Source: Phylloscopus collybita
Taxonomy: Eukaryota; Chordata; Aves; Passeriformes; Phylloscopidae
Direction of reading: 5' to 3'
Length of the DNA stretch: 64,000 nucleotides
Assembly (NCBI GenBank): GCA_027886175.1
Contig: JAJNNQ010000024.1
Location: forward strand, 30,235,001-30,299,000
Made by a program: the position numbers and the translations under genes. Shown here in pieces: positions 3,334 to 54,910 of the stretch. The notes beneath the pieces were generated by a model. That model was not told where the DNA came from and made no database searches. It was given only the letters and a program-made list of their open reading frames with translations. Position 1 is the first letter of the stretch. Every line of letters starts with the position of its first letter.

Positions 3334-19785
<16,452 letters not shown>

Positions 19786-20001: not shown

Positions 20002-23000
20002 TCACTGTCCATTCGCTTTCACTCTATGCTTCTTCTTCCTGCTATGGACTTTAGGCTGCATCATTCTGGGAGAAGGCCGGACAGCCTTCAAGGGTCTCCT
20101 CTGTGCTTGCAATGAACGTTTCTTCTTTAAAGCAGGTTGGGGCAGCTTCTGCTCTTCTTTAGCTTTTGATCCCTCGAGTTTCTTCTTTTTTGACGGAGGC
20201 TCCGCGATGACGGCATCGGGGACTGCGGAGGGAGCTGCCGCTTCCACGGCAGGCCCTTCATCTGAAAGGAGAGAAAGGAGAAGGGTGAGAGCAACTCGTG
20301 TGCCTCCTGCAGGGGAAGCAGCCTGGGAGGGCAGGCCCAGCCAGCTGAGCTGAGCTCCAGCACTGTGTTACCTTTCTGTGCCTGCGGGATGGCGTTGGAG
20401 AACTTCTTGAACTTGGCGATGAAGAAGCCGTCCATATTGTGCGTGTGGGGGTAGAAACGCCGCGTAGACTTGAGGGACGGGTGGAAGCGACGGTCCTTGA
20501 ACCTGGAGGAGGAAGTGGGGTGAGGAGCAATAGAGCACCTCTGCTCAAACCTGGCCCCCCAGGAGCAGTCACGTGTGCAGCTTGTGACCTGGCACGCACC
20601 TGGTGAAGCCCTCCTTGCCAAAGTCCAGGCCTGTGGCCACCAAACGGACATTGCGCTTCTTCAGGGCATAATCCACAACCCACTCGTTCTCCTCCACCTG
20701 CCAGAGGCTAAGCATTAGGATCCAAAACTCGCCCTCTCCTGAGGAGGAGGTGACCACAGCAGAACACAGTAGAAGGCGCTTACCATGATGGAGCAAGTGC
20801 AGTAGACAATGTAGCCCCCTGTCTCCGAGGCAGCGTTGACTGAATCTATGGCACTAAGAATCAGCTCCTTCTGCAGGTGGGCACAACGCAGGATATCTGT
20901 CTCATCCTGAGAGGGAAAGAAAGGTTAGGATGCCACAGGCACAGGGAAGCACCCCAGGCCTCTGCTATGGATGAGGGAATGACAGAGAGCAAAGCACATG
21001 TAATATACAAGAGTTTGGAGTCTTCTGCAGAAGTAATCTCAAAAAACTAGCCCTGGTACAACGCACAGAACAGGAAAGGAAAAATGTACTGTAGGTGTCT
21101 CTCAAGAACAAAGCTGCCCCGAAGGCCTTCCTCTTGTGACTCATACTTGAGTCTGCACTGGTCACCCACCTTGTTGGTTTTGACAGCAGGATCTTTGGAA
21201 ATGACGCCTGTTCCACTACAAGGAGCATCAAGCAAGACACGGTCAAACCCTCCAAGAACCTACAGGCAGATGCAGATTTGGAATTACACTCACAGGTGGG
21301 GACTCAAAACAAGGCCAAGAATAGAAGGGGAACCAGAAGACTGGGAAGGCAAGAAAGACTCCTCCTGCCTTCCTGCCTCTGTATCCAGTAACACTCCCCA
21401 GCAGCTCTGCTCATCCTCCTGGGACAGGTGACTTTGGAGGGCACTGTTTCACTAAAGGGACAGCAGAGCAGCTCTGGGGAAGTGCTGTGAACAGGAACAT
21501 ACCTTGGGGAACTGGCGTCCATCGCAGTTACTCACAACAGCGTTGGTGACTCCCAGCCGGTGCAAGTTCCCTACCACGCTGCGCAGCCGCTCGGCACTGC
21601 TGTCATTGGCCAGGATCATCCCTGTGTTCTTCATCAACTGAGCTGCCAGAGGACAAAACACACCAGCAAGGGGCTGAAAAAACCTCTTGTGCCTTTGTCT
21701 CCAGTGACAGCCACCCCCTCCTTTCCTCCAGTTCAGTCCCCCTCCATTCCCCCTTTCTGTGGAAACTCCTCACTTGACAGAGCATCCCTCCCAAGGCTCC
21801 AGGGTGGTACCTATGTAGCTGGTCTTGCCTCCTGGGGCACAGCACATATCCAGGATGCGCTCATTCTCCTGGGGAGCCAGCGCCATCACAGGGAGAAGGC
21901 TGGAGGCTCCTTGCAGCATGTAGTGTCCAGCCAGATACTCTGGGGTGGCACCTGGGCAGGGAAGGCAAAACACATGATGATGACACGTGCAGGAAAGGGA
22001 AGCAGGAACGGGTGAGCTCAGCCCTGTACAGCAAATGTGATCTCACCGATGGGCACAGTGGAGTCATAAATAACAAGTCCCGTCTTCGACCACTTCCCCA
22101 AGGGGTCCAGATTCACGCCACGGTTGATTAGAGCCTGCAAGGCAAGGAGAAGGGACTGAGGCGCTGCTCCCTGGCACAGGCAGCTCAGGACACAGCCACT
22201 GGCTCCTGCTCACCTGTGCCAGGTCCCGCCGCCGCGTCTTCAGTGTGTTGGTGCGAATGGTGACAGGGCGGGGAACCTCGTTGGCCTCCAGGAAGTTCAC
22301 CAGCTGGATGGAAGGAGGGACAGAGAAGAGAGATAAAAATGAACTCTCAGGGAGGCAGCCAAACCCCTGCTGGTCAGCACAGCCACGGGCAGGGCAGGAA
22401 CCCACCTCAGGGAGCGGGAAGATGTCCATGAGCTTGGCGAGCAGGAAGTCGCTGTAGGAGTAGTAGGCGGCCATGTCCCGGCGCAGCAGCGCCAGGTATT
22501 CCTGCCGGGAGCGGCCCTCCTCCCGCTTCACCCCAAAGTCCTGCAGCACCTCCATGTTGCCCTGGATGCGCTGGTGGATGACGTGCAGGTCGGGAGGCTC
22601 AGCAGGTGGGAGCGCCGTCAAGGAATCACCAACAGCCACGGAAGGGGCACAGGGGCTCTTTACAAGCAGGATCAGCCGCGCTGGGCTCGCGCCCCGCAGC
22701 AGCGCCCGCGCCAGAAGGGCTCTGCTGGAACACTGCCTCCATCAGAGCTCAGCAGGGGCAGGGTTCAAGGGATGAAACCAGACAAAAAAGTTCACGAGGC
22801 AGAACTAGAGGGTGTTTAAAAGAATTGCTCTAGATAAACAGGGAAAAATAGAAAACAAAAAAAACCAAAACCCCAACAAAAGAAGTGTTTTAATACTGAA
22901 AGCATTACCTGCAGCAGAAAAGAGGCTAAAGCTCCCCAAGAGCAACCAAGGGGTACAGAAGAGAGTAAGAAGGGAGGCAGGAAATTAAAATCATCAAAGT

Positions 23001-25763
23001 CCAGCAGCAAGCACTTTGGATGCTAGAACTGCTGTCATCAGAAACTCTGGGAATGGGTCACACAAACACCCACCAGGAAAACCAGAGAGGCACAAACCAC
23101 GTAATAGAACATTGATATGTATTTAGGCCTAGAAAGGAAATTAGGGCAGGTTCCAAGCCCCACACAGGGCATCACAGATTTCCTAACTGTGCTATACAGA
23201 AGCACAGCATTATACAGTATCTATTAGGACAGCTCAGCTAAAAATACCTTGTCATGCACAGACACTTTTGCTAAGCAATATGCATGATAAAGTCCAAGTG
23301 AAACTCTCTGGTTGCAATCTGGGCCCCGTGCTGCATCACGCACATGGCTTATGGATGTCACAGATAAAAAGGATATCCTCCTTCTCCATCTCTTCACTAG
23401 TTGGCAGTTTAAATGGTTCATCTATATCCAGGTTGAGCTGCAGATCAGGGCCCTCTTCTTCCTTCTGTCCCATTTTCTGCTTGCTTGCCTCCTCTGCTTC
23501 CTCTTCCTCCTCCTCCTCCTCCTCTTCACTGTCATCTTCACTGAGGCCTTCCCTAAGGACAAAGAACAGGATCAAACAGACACTTCTCAGCTACCATTTC
23601 TTAGATGGCAGGAAAGGCAGAAGAATAACAACACAGGCTTCTCATCTATCCAGGAAAGGTTCTAGACACTCACCTGTCAGGCTTCTGCTTCAGGGCAGCT
23701 TTTTCAATAGGCAGCAGCTAAACAGAGACAAAAGATCAATCAAAAAAACATCCACAGTCTCCCCTTATTTCCCACCACCTGTGAAATTTACTTGCTGTTT
23801 GACAACAAACAAAAGCACTGAATGTTATGCTGGAATCAGCTACTAAACTTAAAATCATTCTTGTGAAGGAAAGAAGGGGAAAGTTCACCACCACCTCACC
23901 ATCCCCTGCCACTAAAGCCACCCCCCTTTCCCCCCAAGCCCAAGGAGTCCTTTCAGCCAACACTCCAAGTATTTCTCGTGTAATTAAGGGCAGGAAGTCC
24001 CTACCTCTTCTTCCTCTGATGATGAGGCACCATAATCGTCCACCATTTCCTCGCTGCTCCCATCCTCCTCCTCCATCTCCCAGCTTCCCTCTTCCACCTC
24101 ACCATCACTGGATAATTCCACATGGTTTCCTTTAGGTTGGGTTTTCTTGGCTTTGGCTGGAGCCAGCCACCTGGAATTGCCATCACTGAAGCCAGACTGG
24201 CCACGGGCAGTTTGTCCTGCTGCCTTTACAGCACGTTTCTTCTTCTGTGGAGACAGCTGCTCTTCAACTAGAGGCAGAAAAAATGATTAGAAGTTAGGCA
24301 TTATTTCCAAAATCAGCTGTTCTGCTTTTTCAGCTATTACACAAAGAGGCCTCAGTCCAAGTCCTGAGCTGCCTGTCCAGAGAGAGGGACTGCTTGCTCT
24401 CTACACCTCATAAATTACTGGGCATAGTCTCACCTCTCCCCCAGTGAACCTTTCAGGAGATTTAACTGGAATTACCAAACTAAAACACTGCCATAAAATT
24501 CTTATGGTATTTGCTCTGACATATTACGATACCCTCTGTCCCAAATCTTTGTCTACCCTTCCTTCTTTCTATTTCAAGAGTTTCCTGGGCTACGCAAGAC
24601 GTAACACAAAGATTTAAAAGCCTCAGCTATAAAAGCAGCCTGCAACAGCCTTGCTGTGAATGGAGGATAAGTAAAAAATGGATTTAACATACAGGGGAGA
24701 GACCTTTGACTAGTCCTACAGACAAAACTGCCTCCTGCATGGCAGCCACCAGCAATCAGATAGAATTCATTGTTATTATCTGTTAGAGGGAACCCAAAAG
24801 AGGGCCAAGATGAAGGGTCTGGAGGAGAAGCCTTGAGAGGAGCAGCTGAGGTCACTTGGTCTGTTCAGCCTGGAGAAGAGGAGACTGAGGGGAGAGCTCA
24901 CTGCAGGCTACAACTTCCTCAGGAGGGGAAGAGAAGGGGCAGGCACAGATCTCTTCTCTGTGATGACCAGTGACAGGGTCTGAGGGAATGGCAATCAAAG
25001 TTGTGTCTGGCGATACTTAGGTTGCATATCAGAAAGATTCTTCACACAGAGGGTGGCTGGGCACTGAAACAAGTTCCCAAGGAAAGTGATCACAGCCCCA
25101 AGCCCGCCTGAGTTCAAGAAGTGTTTGGACAACACTTTCAGGAATATGCTGCGGCTCTTGAGGTGATCCTGTGCAGGGCCTGGAGCTGGACTCAGTTACC
25201 TTTGTGGGTCCCTTCCAGCTCAGGATACTCTAGGATTCCGTGATTTAAAACAATCAAATTCCACATGTCCCTTGCCTCGAAAACGACGCCAGACAAGGCC
25301 GGTGGCGGCAGCGCCCGGGGGTTAGCAGGACGGGGGCTGGCCGGCCCGGTTCGGACCCGCTCCCAACACTCACTCACTCACCTGCCGGCTCCTGCTGTTC
25401 TCCTCCTGCTCCCAGCCGCCTCCTCCCCGCCGCTCCCAGCCGCCTCTTCGCAGCCCTGCATCGGGGAGGGAAGCGGCGATCAGCCCCGGCCCGGCCCGGC
25501 CCGCACACCCCGGCCCGCCGAGCCGCGCCCCTCACCTCCTTCTGCCGTGACTGGAGAGCTTCTTCCTGCCGGCCTCCGGCTCTGCGGGAAGACACGCGGC
25601 GGTCAGAGGGCCGCGGGCGCCGCGGGGCGGCCGCGGGCCGGTGCAGGCCGCACTTACCTGGCGGCAGGAAGCGGGCGAGCTCCACCTCGGCCCCGCGCTG
25701 CTTGCGGGCCTTGCGCCCGGGGCCGCGCTTCTCCTTCTTGGTGGGGTCGAGCTTCCGCCCCAT
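20002..25763 (-). CDS. NOP2: NOP2 (NOL1/p120), nucleolar 28S rRNA m5C methyltransferase
   Basis: Proliferation-linked nucleolar protein of 60S biogenesis; it transfers a methyl group from SAM to a 28S rRNA cytosine. Coding exons 5' to 3': 25658-25763, 25536-25581, 25382-25455, 24005-24267, 23674-23717, 23377-23552, 22406-22605, 22214-22303, 22047-22134, 21811-21951, 21503-21642, 21170-21259, 20784-20906, 20600-20697, 20372-20502, 20002-20261. Total 1980 nt, 659 aa. It starts [20 protein letters not shown] (basic, nucleolar-targeting type). Acidic runs follow in exons 4 and 6. The SAM loop [11 protein letters not shown] is near residues 395-406. Both NOL1/NOP2/Sun cysteines are present: PCSG Cys about 470 and YCTCS Cys about 524, 54 apart as in human 459/513. 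The C-terminal Lys-rich tail is far shorter than in human (812 or 855 aa). Confidence 0.96.
22606..23376 (-). other. NOP2: U12-type AT-AC intron of NOP2 ('P120 intron F')
   Basis: No GT donor in this region gives a frame-compatible join. Reading the intron as AT-AC does: the donor ATATCCTTTTT (plus strand 23366-23376) fits the U12 5' consensus exactly. TTCCTTGAC (plus strand 22617-22625) fits the U12 branch consensus TTCCTTRAY, with the branch A 12 bases from the 3' end CCCAC. The join gives MEKE-A-AEPPDL, aligning with human MEQDAQAPDL. The human p120/NOL1 gene carries the classic AT-AC intron at this place. Length is 771 nt. Confidence 0.93.
24790..25245 (+). mobile_element. CR1 LINE 3' fragment in NOP2 intron 3
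   Basis: Carries successive CR1 landmarks: 'ctgttcagcctggagaagag', 'ctgaggggagagctcac', 'caggaggggaag', 'agtgtttggacaacactttcagg', and the end 'gggtcccttccagctcaggatactctaggattccgtgat'. The longest CR1 copy here (about 455 bp), non-coding, antisense to NOP2. Confidence 0.93.
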
Positions 25764-25960
25764 GGCCGCCCTCCGCCACACGTGCCGCGCTCCCCGCCGC
25801 CCCGCGCACGCGCCCGCCGCCGGCCCGCCCCCGCGCCGCCGATCCTGACCGCTGATTGGCCCTGCCCGCAACGTCATCGGCGCGGGGCCCCGCCCCCGGG
25901 GCGCGTGGGGCCGCGGGCCCGCCCCGCCGCGGCAGCCCCGGGAGCGGGAATCCTGCCGCA
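25764..25960 (-). promoter_or_regulatory. NOP2: NOP2 promoter and CpG island
   Basis: CpG-rich sequence surrounds the first three NOP2 exons (about 25270-25960). Upstream of the start codon, the minus strand carries a CCAAT box (plus strand attgg, 25855-25859). It sits between GC boxes (cccgcccc) and a CRE-like half site (cgtcatcg, 25871-25878). No TATA box. Typical of a housekeeping promoter; binding is inferred from motifs only. Confidence 0.65.
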
Positions 25961-26084
25961 GGCACTCACGGGCGGCCCCCCAGCCGCGGCAGGGGCTCAA
26001 CAGCCCGAGGCAGGCAGCAGAGAAAGGCGGGGGGCAGAGGCAAGGGAAAGGAGTTATAGAAGCAGAGACTGTTAAGGTGGAGGC

Positions 26085-26200
26085 GAAGAGGTTAAGATCA
26101 TCTGGCCCAACACCCACGCCATGGTTAGGGACACCACTCCTGAGACCTCAAAGCCTGATCGAACCTGGCCTTAAACACTGCCAGGGTTGGGACATCTACT
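26085..26200 (-). mobile_element. CR1 LINE fragment between NOP2 and CHD4
   Basis: The minus-strand reading gives the CR1 segment order 'ccagg.. gttgggccagatgatcttaac'. On the plus strand, 'gatcatctggcccaacacccacgccatggttagggacacc' and 'cctggccttaaacactgccagggttggg' are visible. Short and diverged. It lies in the roughly 550-bp spacer between NOP2 and the CHD4 3' end. Confidence 0.85.
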
Positions 26201-26873: not shown

Positions 26874-46258
<19,385 letters not shown>

Positions 46259-47148
46259 TTACACAGGTTGTCGTCTTCTTGCCAGTATGGCCAGTACTTC
46301 ATTGAAAAGAAAAAGAGAAAGTTACAGCGAACCTGAACTCCGTTCTCCTAAGCAATAGTGCTACTAAGAGGATCTGCGAGAAAGCTTAGACAGCAACTTT
46401 ACTGGCTTTGGAGCCTATGGATAATAGAAACACTGGCAGCAAGTATCAGTTTAGAGTTGTGATAAAGCAGGCTTTGAAGACACCAGATATTAAACTGAGT
46501 CAGCAACTCATCTCTGGCGAGGAAGCCAAAACAGCTGTCCTAAAGAAAAACTCTCCCGTCCTCTGCAGCCGAGTGCCCTCGGTTATTTCTGCCTTCTCCA
46601 TGCCGGGAGAAGGCAGCGGGGCAAGCAAGGCAGCCGGGCTTCCAAGGGAGCCCTGGGGCCAGCGGGGCGGCTGTCAGCGCGGTGCCCTGGCCAGCAGCCC
46701 CAACCCGCCCCGGGCTGGCACTGCAGCGCTGGCCCTGCCCCTGCCCGGCCGCCGGCCGCACACAAAAGGCCGGGCGGGCTCGACAGCCCCGCTCCGCCGC
46801 CCCCGCCCGGAGCGGGGCTGCGCGGCGCAGGGCGGGGGCGGGGGGCACCGTCTCCCGGGCGGGGGCGCGGGGCGGGGCCGGGCAAGTCCGGCGGGCGTGT
46901 GGCGAGGGGCCGCCGCTCCCCGGGGACCGACGCAGGCCTGGGCTGCGGGCACCGGCGAGGCGGTTGCGGGGCGGGGGAGGAGGGGCCGAACCCGTCCTGC
47001 GGCCGCCCGGGCAGGGGGACGCCGCGTCCCCGGAGGAGCTGCGGCTGGAGCCGACGGGACGTCCGGCAGAGAGACGCGTCTGCTGGCCTGGACGCCCCGG
47101 GAGGCCGCAGATGGCCTTGCCCACCCTCCTTCCCTCCCGGCTCCTCAC

Positions 47149-47235
47149 CCGGCTCCGGACCCCAGCTCCTCTCTCGCCGCTGCCGCCGCTGAAGGGAAAA
47201 TGGCTCCGGCCGCGGCACCGCCTCTTAAAGGGGAA
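47149..47235 (-). other. CHD4: Probable CHD4 untranslated exon 1
   Basis: The minus strand shows GCCATTTTCCCTTCAGCGGC followed by a (CGG)-rich stretch, GAGAGAGGAGCTGGGGTCCG, and a good donor GCCGG|GTGAGGAG (donor bases at 47147-47148). A matching acceptor (CCCAG, near 46253) precedes the start-codon exon. The 5' end was not placed: the upstream CTTTAAGAGG block near 47220-47230 is only a guide. With this exon the gene has 40, the human number. Confidence 0.5.
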
Positions 47236-47269
47236 AAAAACCCGGCTAGGCTCCGCCCCCTCCCGCCTA

Positions 47270-47870
47270 CATCCCATAATATGCCCCGGGACCCCGGCAA
47301 CAGGCCCCGCCCCCGTCTCCCCGGCAAATACACACCCCCTTCCCCCCCCCCCCCCCCCCCGACATCCCATAATACTCACCCTCCCCTCAGAACTTCCCAC
47401 TCACTGCCCGGCCCGGCATCCCATAATAATAACCTCCCCTCCCGCCGGTAACATCCCATAATACTGTCCGTTCCCCCCCCCGCCCCGCACCTTCACCCCG
47501 AGAAACATCCCATAATACTCCCCCACGCTCGCACCCCTTCGCTCCGGCATCCCATAATACTGACCCCCACCACCAAACATCCCATAGTACTGTCCCCGCG
47601 CGGGACCCCGCGCGCCGGGGCAGGGCGCCCCCCCCTTGCACCTCCCGGGGCTGCCATCCCATAATAGGCACGTCCCCCTCCCGCGGGGAGAGCGCGGTGG
47701 GGGGGGGGGGAGGGCGCACTGTGAGGACCCCCCCCCCGGAACATCCCATAATAGTCACACCCCGAGCGCGCACATCCCATAATAGTCACACCTCCCCCCA
47801 CCCCGCGCGCCCAGGCAGGCATCCCATAATAGTCGCCGGGAGCCACCGTCCAGCCCGGCATCCCATAATA
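47270..47870 (+). promoter_or_regulatory. CHD4: CHD4 promoter array of ZNF410-type sites (12 copies)
   Basis: CATCCCATAATA occurs at 47270, 47363, 47417, 47452, 47506, 47548, 47655, 47742, 47773, 47820 and 47859. One variant, CATCCCATAGTA, is at 47578. All are in the same orientation (TATTATGGGATG along CHD4). Start-to-start spacings run from 30 to 93 bases with no fixed period, and the sequence between copies is unrelated GC-rich DNA. These are therefore reiterated binding sites, not a tandem satellite. The word matches the published ZNF410 motif. ZNF410 is reported to activate mammalian CHD4 through clustered sites at its promoter. Binding in this species is inferred. Confidence 0.93.
47342..47360. 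repeat. C19 homopolymer in CHD4 promoter island
   Basis: Nineteen C in a row, ending two bases before the second site of the promoter array. Its length may be affected by sequencing error. Confidence 0.85.
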
Positions 47871-48339
47871 CTCGCGGCCGCCCGCCCCGCACCCGCACCC
47901 GCGGGGCTCCGCCGCCGCCCCCCGCCCGCCCTGCCCGGAGGCGCGGGGCCCGCTCCGGCCCAGCCCCCGCTCCGGCCCGGGGCACGGGGCCGACCCCTGG
48001 CACCGCGCGGCCTCCGCGCACCTTCCGCCCTCCTGCGCGCTGGCACCGGCCCCGGGCACAGGCTCCGGGCACCGCCCTCCCACCGCCGACCGCCCCCGAC
48101 CTCGGGGCTGAGCGCCCCGCTCTCCCTGCCCCGTCCTGCCGTGCCCCGTCCCGCACGCTCCGCCCGCGGGGCCGCAGGACCCCTCCAGGGCTATCCGTGC
48201 CCGGCGCGGCCACTGCCACCGCCAGCCTGTGTGTGGGGAGCCTGCAGTGACTTTGGTGCTTCCCCTGCACCTCGAGGCTTCCTGGCTGCTGGTACCTGCA
48301 GAACTACCGACCCCAGGGATACGCATTCTCCCGGGCAAC

Positions 48340-48605
48340 TAGCGACAGGATGAGAGCATGTCGTTTCAAGCGGTGCCAGGGGAGGCTTAGGCTGGACATC
48401 AGGAGGAATTTCTTCATGGAAAGGGTGATCAGACACTGGAATGGACCACCAGAGAAATGGTGGAGTCACCATCCCCAGAGTTCAGGAAAGGCTGGATGTG
48501 GCATTTAGCGCCATGGTCTAGTTGCCATAGTGGTGTTCGGTCAAAGGTTGGACTTGATGATCTCAGAGGTCTTTTCCAGCCTAACTGAATCTGTGATAGA
48601 CGGTG
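48340..48605 (+). mobile_element. CR1 LINE 3' fragment upstream of CHD4
   Basis: Landmarks: 'ggcttaggctggacatcaggagga..tttcttca', 'ggtgatcagacactggaatgg', 'ccagagttcaggaaaggctggatgtggcat', then the tail 'aaggttggacttgatgatctcagaggtcttttccagcctaa..gaatctgtga'. It lies at the outer edge of the CHD4 promoter island, pointing away from CHD4. Diverged and non-coding. Confidence 0.95.
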
Positions 48606-53749: not shown

Positions 53750-54910
53750 TCTCCCTTCCTACGTCGGGGTCAGAATTTGCTTGCCGGGGCAGGCGGGAGC
53801 CCGCAGCCTCGCCATGCTGGGGACCCGGCCGAGGGCTCCTGTGGAGCCCACGTGCAGTTGGCAGCCAGGAGCCCGCCCCGCCTTGTGCCCCATGCCCGGC
53901 GCATCCCCGCCTTCCCATCCTCCCGCCGCGCTGCCCCGGGGGGCGGCGGGGCCCGCTCGGCCCCACCCCGCATCCCATAATAGTTCACAAAGGCGACTCC
54001 ATCCCATAATAGCCACCCACGGGAAACACACCATGGCAACCACCCCCCCACCCCACCCCCGCGCCATCCCATAATACCCTGCCGGCTTTATTGGTCCCGA
54101 CCGAGGAGGGCAGGGGGGGCCGGGGCCGGACGGGGGCACCGCGGGGAGGTCCCGGCGGGCACCGCCAGGAAGCCTGGCTGGGGCTGCAGCCTCCCCTCGG
54201 CATCCCGCAGCACTCCCCCCCCTCCTCCTTCCTGCTGCATCCCATAATACTTCCCAGGGAGGCAGCCCCGCTGTAAGGTAGAGCCATCCCATAATAGTGG
54301 CCCGGTCACACCGCGCTGGGAATGGTGCCATCCCATAATACTCTCGCCCCACGCCGGCTGCGGCGGGCCCTGCCATCCCATAATAGCCGCCCGCTCTCCC
54401 CCGCCCCCCCCGCTCCTTGTGGGGCATCCTCCTCATCCCATAATACTCCGCCCGGCGGCACGAGCGCCCGCCATCCCATAATATGCCCTGCCACCCACCT
54501 GCCCCCCTCCGGTCGCGGGAGGCCTCGCCATCCCATAATAGTCGCGGCTCGCCCTTCCCCCCCCCCGCAGAAGGGCTCGCCATCCCATAATACTCGCCGC
54601 TTGCCATCCCTTAAAGCCGCGGCTGAGGCCTGACCCCGTGGGCCGCGCTCGCCTGCCCGGCCCGGCCCGGCCCGGCCCCCCCGCACCCCTGCACCTCCGC
54701 TCTGCCGCCTGCCCCGCTGCCGCCACCGCGCTGCCTCGCCCCGGCCTCGCCGTGCTGCTCTGCCCTGGCTTCCCCCTCACCTGGCAGCCCAGCTGCCGCT
54801 GCCGCCCCAGCTGCAGCCTTGGCCGTGCGCCTTCCCAGAGCCTTCTCCTGGGTGCCCCCGGCCCGTGCTGGGCCCCTCGCTGTGGTGCCTTCCCCACTCA
54901 GCCCTGGGTG
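53750..54910. promoter_or_regulatory. Distal CpG island carrying the second array
   Basis: A CpG-dense island 6.5-7.7 kb upstream of the predicted CHD4 first exon, centred on the second CATCCCATAATA array. No coding exon was recognised beside it. It could be an enhancer, an unannotated non-coding RNA promoter, or both. Confidence 0.75.
53971..54592 (+). promoter_or_regulatory. Distal array of ZNF410-type sites (11 copies), putative CHD4 enhancer
   Basis: Exact CATCCCATAATA starts at 53971, 54000, 54065, 54238, 54285, 54329, 54374, 54434, 54472, 54529 and 54581. Decayed relatives are CATCCCGCAG (near 54200) and CATCCCTTAAA (54604). All are in the same orientation as the promoter array, with start-to-start spacings of 29 to 173 bases. 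Distance to the predicted CHD4 exon 1 is about 6.7 kb. In mammals a second ZNF410 cluster about 6 kb upstream of CHD4 acts as its enhancer; the position and word agree. Activity here is inferred. Confidence 0.92.

Follow-up and report, generated by a model that had tools for sequence, protein, structure and literature searches.

Two clusters of ZNF410-type sites at a bird CHD4 gene point to an avian ZNF410-CHD4 circuit

The CHD4 locus of this bird carries two clusters of ZNF410-type sites upstream of the gene. We consider it very probable that the locus represents an avian ZNF410-CHD4 circuit, in which the clusters are promoter-proximal and distal CHD4 control elements. The window, the whole 64-kb stretch of DNA that we analysed, contains the CHD4 gene and two site clusters with more than 10 motifs each, and the genome encodes an orthologue of the factor. 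Among the genome places listed, no comparable cluster appeared elsewhere.

In the mechanism that we propose, the two homotypic clusters would act as promoter-proximal and distal control elements of avian CHD4. The five zinc fingers of ZNF410 would read CATCCCATAATA together with a weak 3' extension, S-T-C-N-C. Many copies of ZNF410 bound at both elements would then drive CHD4 transcription and set the dose of the NuRD remodeller. By analogy with mammalian work, binding, activation and a near-exclusive devotion of ZNF410 to CHD4 would be expected in the bird as well. The mammalian ZNF410-CHD4 circuit was reportedly described by Lan et al. in Mol Cell and by Vinjamur et al. in Nat Genet, both in 2021.

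Results

The window contains CHD4 in a neighbourhood that looks conserved

The first-pass annotation had named the gene as CHD4, and comparison of two exons with protein structures agreed: CHD4 chains were the best PDB matches among those listed. For the frame at 41062-41313, the best match was the full-length CHD4 chain (E 2.8e-64), and the frame at 38445-38696 scored 130 bits against CHD4 and 54 bits against CHD1. On one PHD-finger stretch common to the CHD4 and CHD5 chains the scores were close (114.5 vs 108 bits), and the choice of CHD4 therefore leans also on the longer match, the amino terminus, SCARNA11 and the neighbouring genes. The amino-terminal exon was read from a minus-strand open frame, with the start codon at about 46231. 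PHD fingers follow at 41062-41669, chromodomain and helicase exons at 32594-40364, and C-terminal exons extend to about 26986. SCARNA11 was the one RNA family found in the window, and human CHD4 hosts it likewise.

Downstream of CHD4 are NOP2- and IFFO1-like exons, and the upstream flank holds an LPAR5-like receptor frame (names assigned by eye). The NOP2 assignment is based on two RsmB/F-type matches below the Pfam cut-off in a search of ten long open frames. This gene order resembles the human one and looks conserved. The inferred promoter has, by eye, TTTAAG and GCCATTTT, and a GTGAGG donor follows at about 47148; these elements fall where the earlier note had placed the untranslated exon, about 35 bases from the start of the array. 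CHD4 is transcribed leftward, which puts cluster A directly upstream of the inferred first exon, with cluster B another 6.7 kb or so away in the same direction.

Table 1. Features of the CHD4 locus (window positions)
Feature	Positions	Strand	Description
NOP2 (rRNA methyltransferase) exons	20005..26147	-	Neighbour gene; name by eye
CHD4 coding region	26986..46258	-	Open frames; two exons compared with PDB, the rest recognised by eye; not a full gene model
SCARNA11	30152..30290	-	Inside CHD4; RNA-family score 67.9 bits (gathering 37)
GC-rich island	46500..48499		68-76% GC in 500-base steps; contains promoter and cluster A
Core promoter and untranslated first exon of CHD4 (inferred)	47149..47235	-	Limits by eye
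Cluster A	47270..47870	+	12 ZNF410-type sites at the CHD4 promoter; start-to-start gaps 30-93
Cluster B	53971..54592	+	11 exact CATCCCATAATA sites, about 6.7 kb upstream of cluster A; gaps 29-173
Possible decayed site, CATCCCGCAGCACTC	54201..54215	+	Within cluster B's largest gap; scores 7.2, vs at least 22.7 for the 23 sites

Two clusters of one word lie upstream of CHD4

The repeated word, CATCCCATAATA, equals the ZNF410 motif of mammals. Our motif scan recovered the 12 copies in 601 bases, 11 exact and one variant and all in one orientation, that had been claimed for the promoter. The exact copies in cluster A start at 47270, 47363, 47417, 47452, 47506, 47548, 47655, 47742, 47773, 47820 and 47859 (plus strand), and the one-base variant, CATCCCATAGTA, is at 47578. 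The scan also identified cluster B, which was absent from the earlier note; it is on the same strand as cluster A and occupies 622 bp. The two intervals of 601 and 622 bp thus hold 23 sites, 22 of them exact. Excerpts from PMC9181152 describe one cluster at the CHD4 promoter and one at a distal element, each with over 10 perfect motifs, in regions that are highly conserved in evolution. Both bird clusters likewise exceed 10 perfect motifs, with 11 exact copies plus one variant in cluster A and 11 exact copies in cluster B.

After low-complexity filtering, no other 12-mer in the window was as frequent as CATCCCATAATA, with its 22 exact copies. When up to two mismatches were allowed, the window held 27 matches against 3.1 expected, a total that none of 100 shuffles attained. 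When each interval was dinucleotide-shuffled 2000 times, exact copies averaged 0.001 and 0.0005. Outside both clusters, four matches with up to two mismatches were left, which is about background. On this ground, with four out-of-cluster matches against 3.1 expected over the whole window, we dismissed the minus-strand near-matches at 18672 and 18755.

The relic-like site at 54201 also falls in repeat family D2, and it may be a chance match. Between the clusters, near 48360-48600, we recognised by eye a CR1-like LINE tail. It is from this tail, together with a genome size of 1.25 Gb, that we take the organism to be a bird.

Copies of the word elsewhere in the genome

In the 1.25 Gb genome, exact CATCCCATAATA occurs 258 times (163 forward, 95 reverse), and 22 of these copies are in the CHD4 clusters. 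The word read backwards occurs 47 times genome-wide. If the CHD4 clusters had the copy rate found elsewhere in the genome, they would be expected to hold 0.0002 exact copies rather than 22.

The genome-wide list of places is complete for copies followed by C (58) or G (35), of which 19 are in CHD4 and 74 outside. These 74 all lie at least 85 kb apart, and they form no second cluster beyond CHD4. Inspection by eye of the first 100 of the 258 places (through C24:30282506) showed no further pair less than 1 kb apart. The first-pass annotation had proposed a genome scan in which enrichment would appear only at CHD4. For the part of the genome list covered, namely the 93 C- or G-followed copies and the first 100 of 258 places, no rival cluster appeared. 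Outside CHD4, copies followed by A or T were more frequent on the forward strand than on the reverse (101 vs 61, p 0.002). This bias could reflect an oriented repeat of the word elsewhere, which leaves a gap in the claim that the CHD4 clusters are unique in the genome.

Among 20 fetched stretches that contain the word, 13 (on C11, C65 and C109) share flanks, two on C8 share flanks and five are unrelated singles. Eight loci from the list of exact copies also had unrelated flanks. The stretches on C11, C65 and C109 belong to a dispersed repeat of at least 13 copies, which carries CATCCCATAATAC and varies little across the 60 bases of flank that were compared; this repeat inflates the tally of the word for the whole genome. 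As a source of the CHD4 clusters this repeat was rejected, as its flanks are different.

The clusters do not look like repeats

If the word had been carried in by a satellite, a transposable-element fragment or tandem duplication, the clusters would have no regulatory role. The shared orientation of the copies, their packing into short intervals and the existence of a dispersed repeat with the same word (the 13 fetched copies with near-identical flanks) are what such an artefact would give. However, Tandem Repeats Finder placed no array over either cluster. The DNA between sites had been called unrelated, and site-pair flanks were indeed hardly more alike than random spacer, with a mean of 15.0 of 40 matches compared with 14.4 for 882 random spacer pairs. 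The most similar flanks, those of the sites at 54529 and 54581, matched at 27 of 40 positions, close to the highest value among random pairs, 28. With the motif masked, clusters A and B shared short, non-colinear matches only, among the matches listed; the best was 53 bases long and 81% identical (E 7e-6, low-complexity filter off). The same matches led us to reject duplication of one cluster into the other. The spacing of the sites is irregular too, as had been claimed (start-to-start gaps, Table 1). Taken together, these data make a repeat origin exceedingly unlikely.

Sites share one orientation and a minimum spacing

All 23 sites point the same way, for which p would be about 2e-7 under free orientation. 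The smallest gaps had a probability of 0.0036 in cluster A and 0.022 in cluster B given non-overlap of 12 bases, and of 0.012 and 0.057, respectively, if a 17-base footprint is assumed; this spacing-floor test (29-30 bases) is post hoc and its result modest. Site positions showed no helical phasing at periods of 10, 10.4, 10.5, 10.6 and 21 (Rayleigh p at least 0.2).

Some positions beside the motif are biased relative to the GC-rich spacer. Counted from the motif start, T occupies offset 13 in 17 of 23 sites (p 0.0003) and C occupies offset 16 in 20 of 23 (p 0.0017). G is found at offset -2 in 13 of 23 sites (p 0.001), and offsets 25 (adenine, p 0.007) and 15 (p 0.04) deviate too; all of these are p-values of single-column tests over 22 columns. 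The preferences at offsets 13 and 16 fit a footprint longer than the 12-mer.

A weight-matrix scan of the 64-kb window found no sites of intermediate strength. All 23 sites scored at least 22.7 and the next best score in the window was 8.4, a gap that arises partly by construction, since these 23 sites themselves went into the matrix.

One tentative reading of this anatomy, which we think rather unlikely, is a counted array. All sites would be kept at full strength and facing the same way, with no two neighbours nearer than 29-30 bases, so that ZNF410 molecules would bind without clashing and their effects would add up linearly. Site number would be conserved by selection and would set CHD4 dose while the spacer drifts freely, and the array would have been kept since the bird-mammal ancestor by a factor that serves essentially one gene.

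The bird ZNF410 orthologue has the same recognition residues as human ZNF410

The earlier note had made its reading depend on a ZNF410 orthologue with the same five DNA-contacting fingers, and such an orthologue is present. Using a human query exon by exon, we located it at C18:24243366-24259783 (minus strand). The segment at C18:24248032-24248232, 87% identical over residues 22-88, was the one orthologue-grade match among those listed. The human finger-domain query equals PDB 6wmi chain A at 144 of 144 residues. Between bird and human, 136 of these 144 residues are identical, seven differ and one is ambiguous at an exon junction. Within each finger, a 12-residue stretch separates cysteine from histidine; over the five stretches, 60 of 60 residues agree with human (PDB 6wmi), and all seven clear differences lie outside these recognition stretches. 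Residue 328 is lysine, which matches a statement on ZF4 in excerpts of a review.

The clusters could also be functional and be read mainly by another factor for the same word, with ZNF410 as a minor reader. Zinc-finger proteins are plentiful in this genome, with 279 C2H2 matches when 150 of 4726 candidates were scored. Yet the other listed C2H2 matches were at most 56% identical, all five recognition stretches of bird ZNF410 equal those of human, and human ZNF410 occupies CHD4 near-exclusively according to excerpts from PMC9181152. We therefore regard a different main reader as highly unlikely and ZNF410 as the predicted reader of both clusters.

Among the 279 matches, open frames of C2H2 zinc-finger type are abundant on C20, C54, C80 and C11, some of them with identical scores and frame lengths. 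No exact CATCCCATAATA occurs within the 40 kb surrounding the ZNF410 gene, and autoregulation of ZNF410 was rejected on this basis.

Discussion

Age of the circuit

By parsimony from one bird genome and published mammalian work, the circuit probably dates back at least to the divergence of mammals and birds. The second cluster is a stronger argument for a common origin than cluster A alone. Birds and mammals might instead have gained their clusters separately under the same factor, in which case the cis part of the circuit would not be ancestral. This would suit the spacers, which show little shared ancestry between sites or between clusters; the same observation also means that individual sites may turn over. 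Against separate gains are the promoter-plus-distal layout beside the same gene in both lineages, a gene order that looks conserved and the unchanged reading residues of ZNF410. Given the shared layout, the apparently conserved gene order and the unchanged residues, one origin with turnover of sites is simpler, and we judge separate gains to be very unlikely.

Relation to published work

In excerpts from PMC9181152, ZNF410 occupies eight loci in human erythroid cells, of which CHD4 is the functional one, and loss of ZNF410 lowers CHD4 in these cells. Excerpts from PMC9426921 also describe two clusters of conserved sites at CHD4, which is the top gene for predicted conserved ZNF410 sites (23 of 2,894 assigned to it). 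The same excerpts place all eight ZNF410 peaks in the CHD4 promoter region, unlike those from PMC9181152, and cite ZNF410 ChIP-seq in an erythroleukaemia line that gave thousands of peaks. These thousands of peaks weaken strict single-target language for ZNF410.

Among the matches listed in an open-licence subset of the literature on ZNF410 with chicken, zebrafish or bird, no title concerned bird CHD4 sites. The 12-mer CATCCCATAATA itself returned, in open-licence full texts, only papers that are unrelated by title. In excerpts from a turkey and a rail paper, ZNF410 has a single mention each, as an entry in a gene list, and CHD4 has none. The novelty of our observations is moderate, because excerpts from PMC9181152 already call the mammalian clusters highly conserved; given that conservation, vertebrate alignments of the CHD4 clusters have likely been seen before. 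The new details are the second cluster, the uniform orientation, the lack of intermediate-strength sites in the window and the spacing floor of 29-30 bases.

What the circuit may be for

Birds, to our knowledge, are without the human kind of fetal gamma-globin switch. The two-cluster layout and the unchanged DNA-reading surface in such an animal suggest that the circuit was not built for haemoglobin. More probably, it has long served to hold the dose of CHD4/NuRD. In excerpts of the published work, ZNF410 is presented as a candidate target for raising fetal haemoglobin. The bird locus offers a natural comparison in which one can ask whether selection preserves site number, orientation or spacing.

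Comparison with known systems

Most transcription factors serve many genes. Mammalian ZNF410 is a striking exception to this rule, as described in excerpts from PMC9181152, and the avian ZNF410-CHD4 circuit would share that character.

Two known arrangements can be set beside the bird locus. In homotypic clusters as a general class, one site is repeated many times within a short regulatory stretch close to a promoter. The bird clusters resemble this class in that respect. They differ from it in that all sites share an orientation and none is graded or of intermediate strength, and the genome places listed included no further dense target.

The nearer relative is the circuit at mammalian CHD4. 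The bird locus has 23 sites and human CHD4 has 27. Bird and mammal have in common the gene CHD4, the 12-base word and the promoter-plus-distal layout. Their clusters also hold roughly as many perfect sites, more than 10 each, and the reading residues of their ZNF410 proteins are identical.
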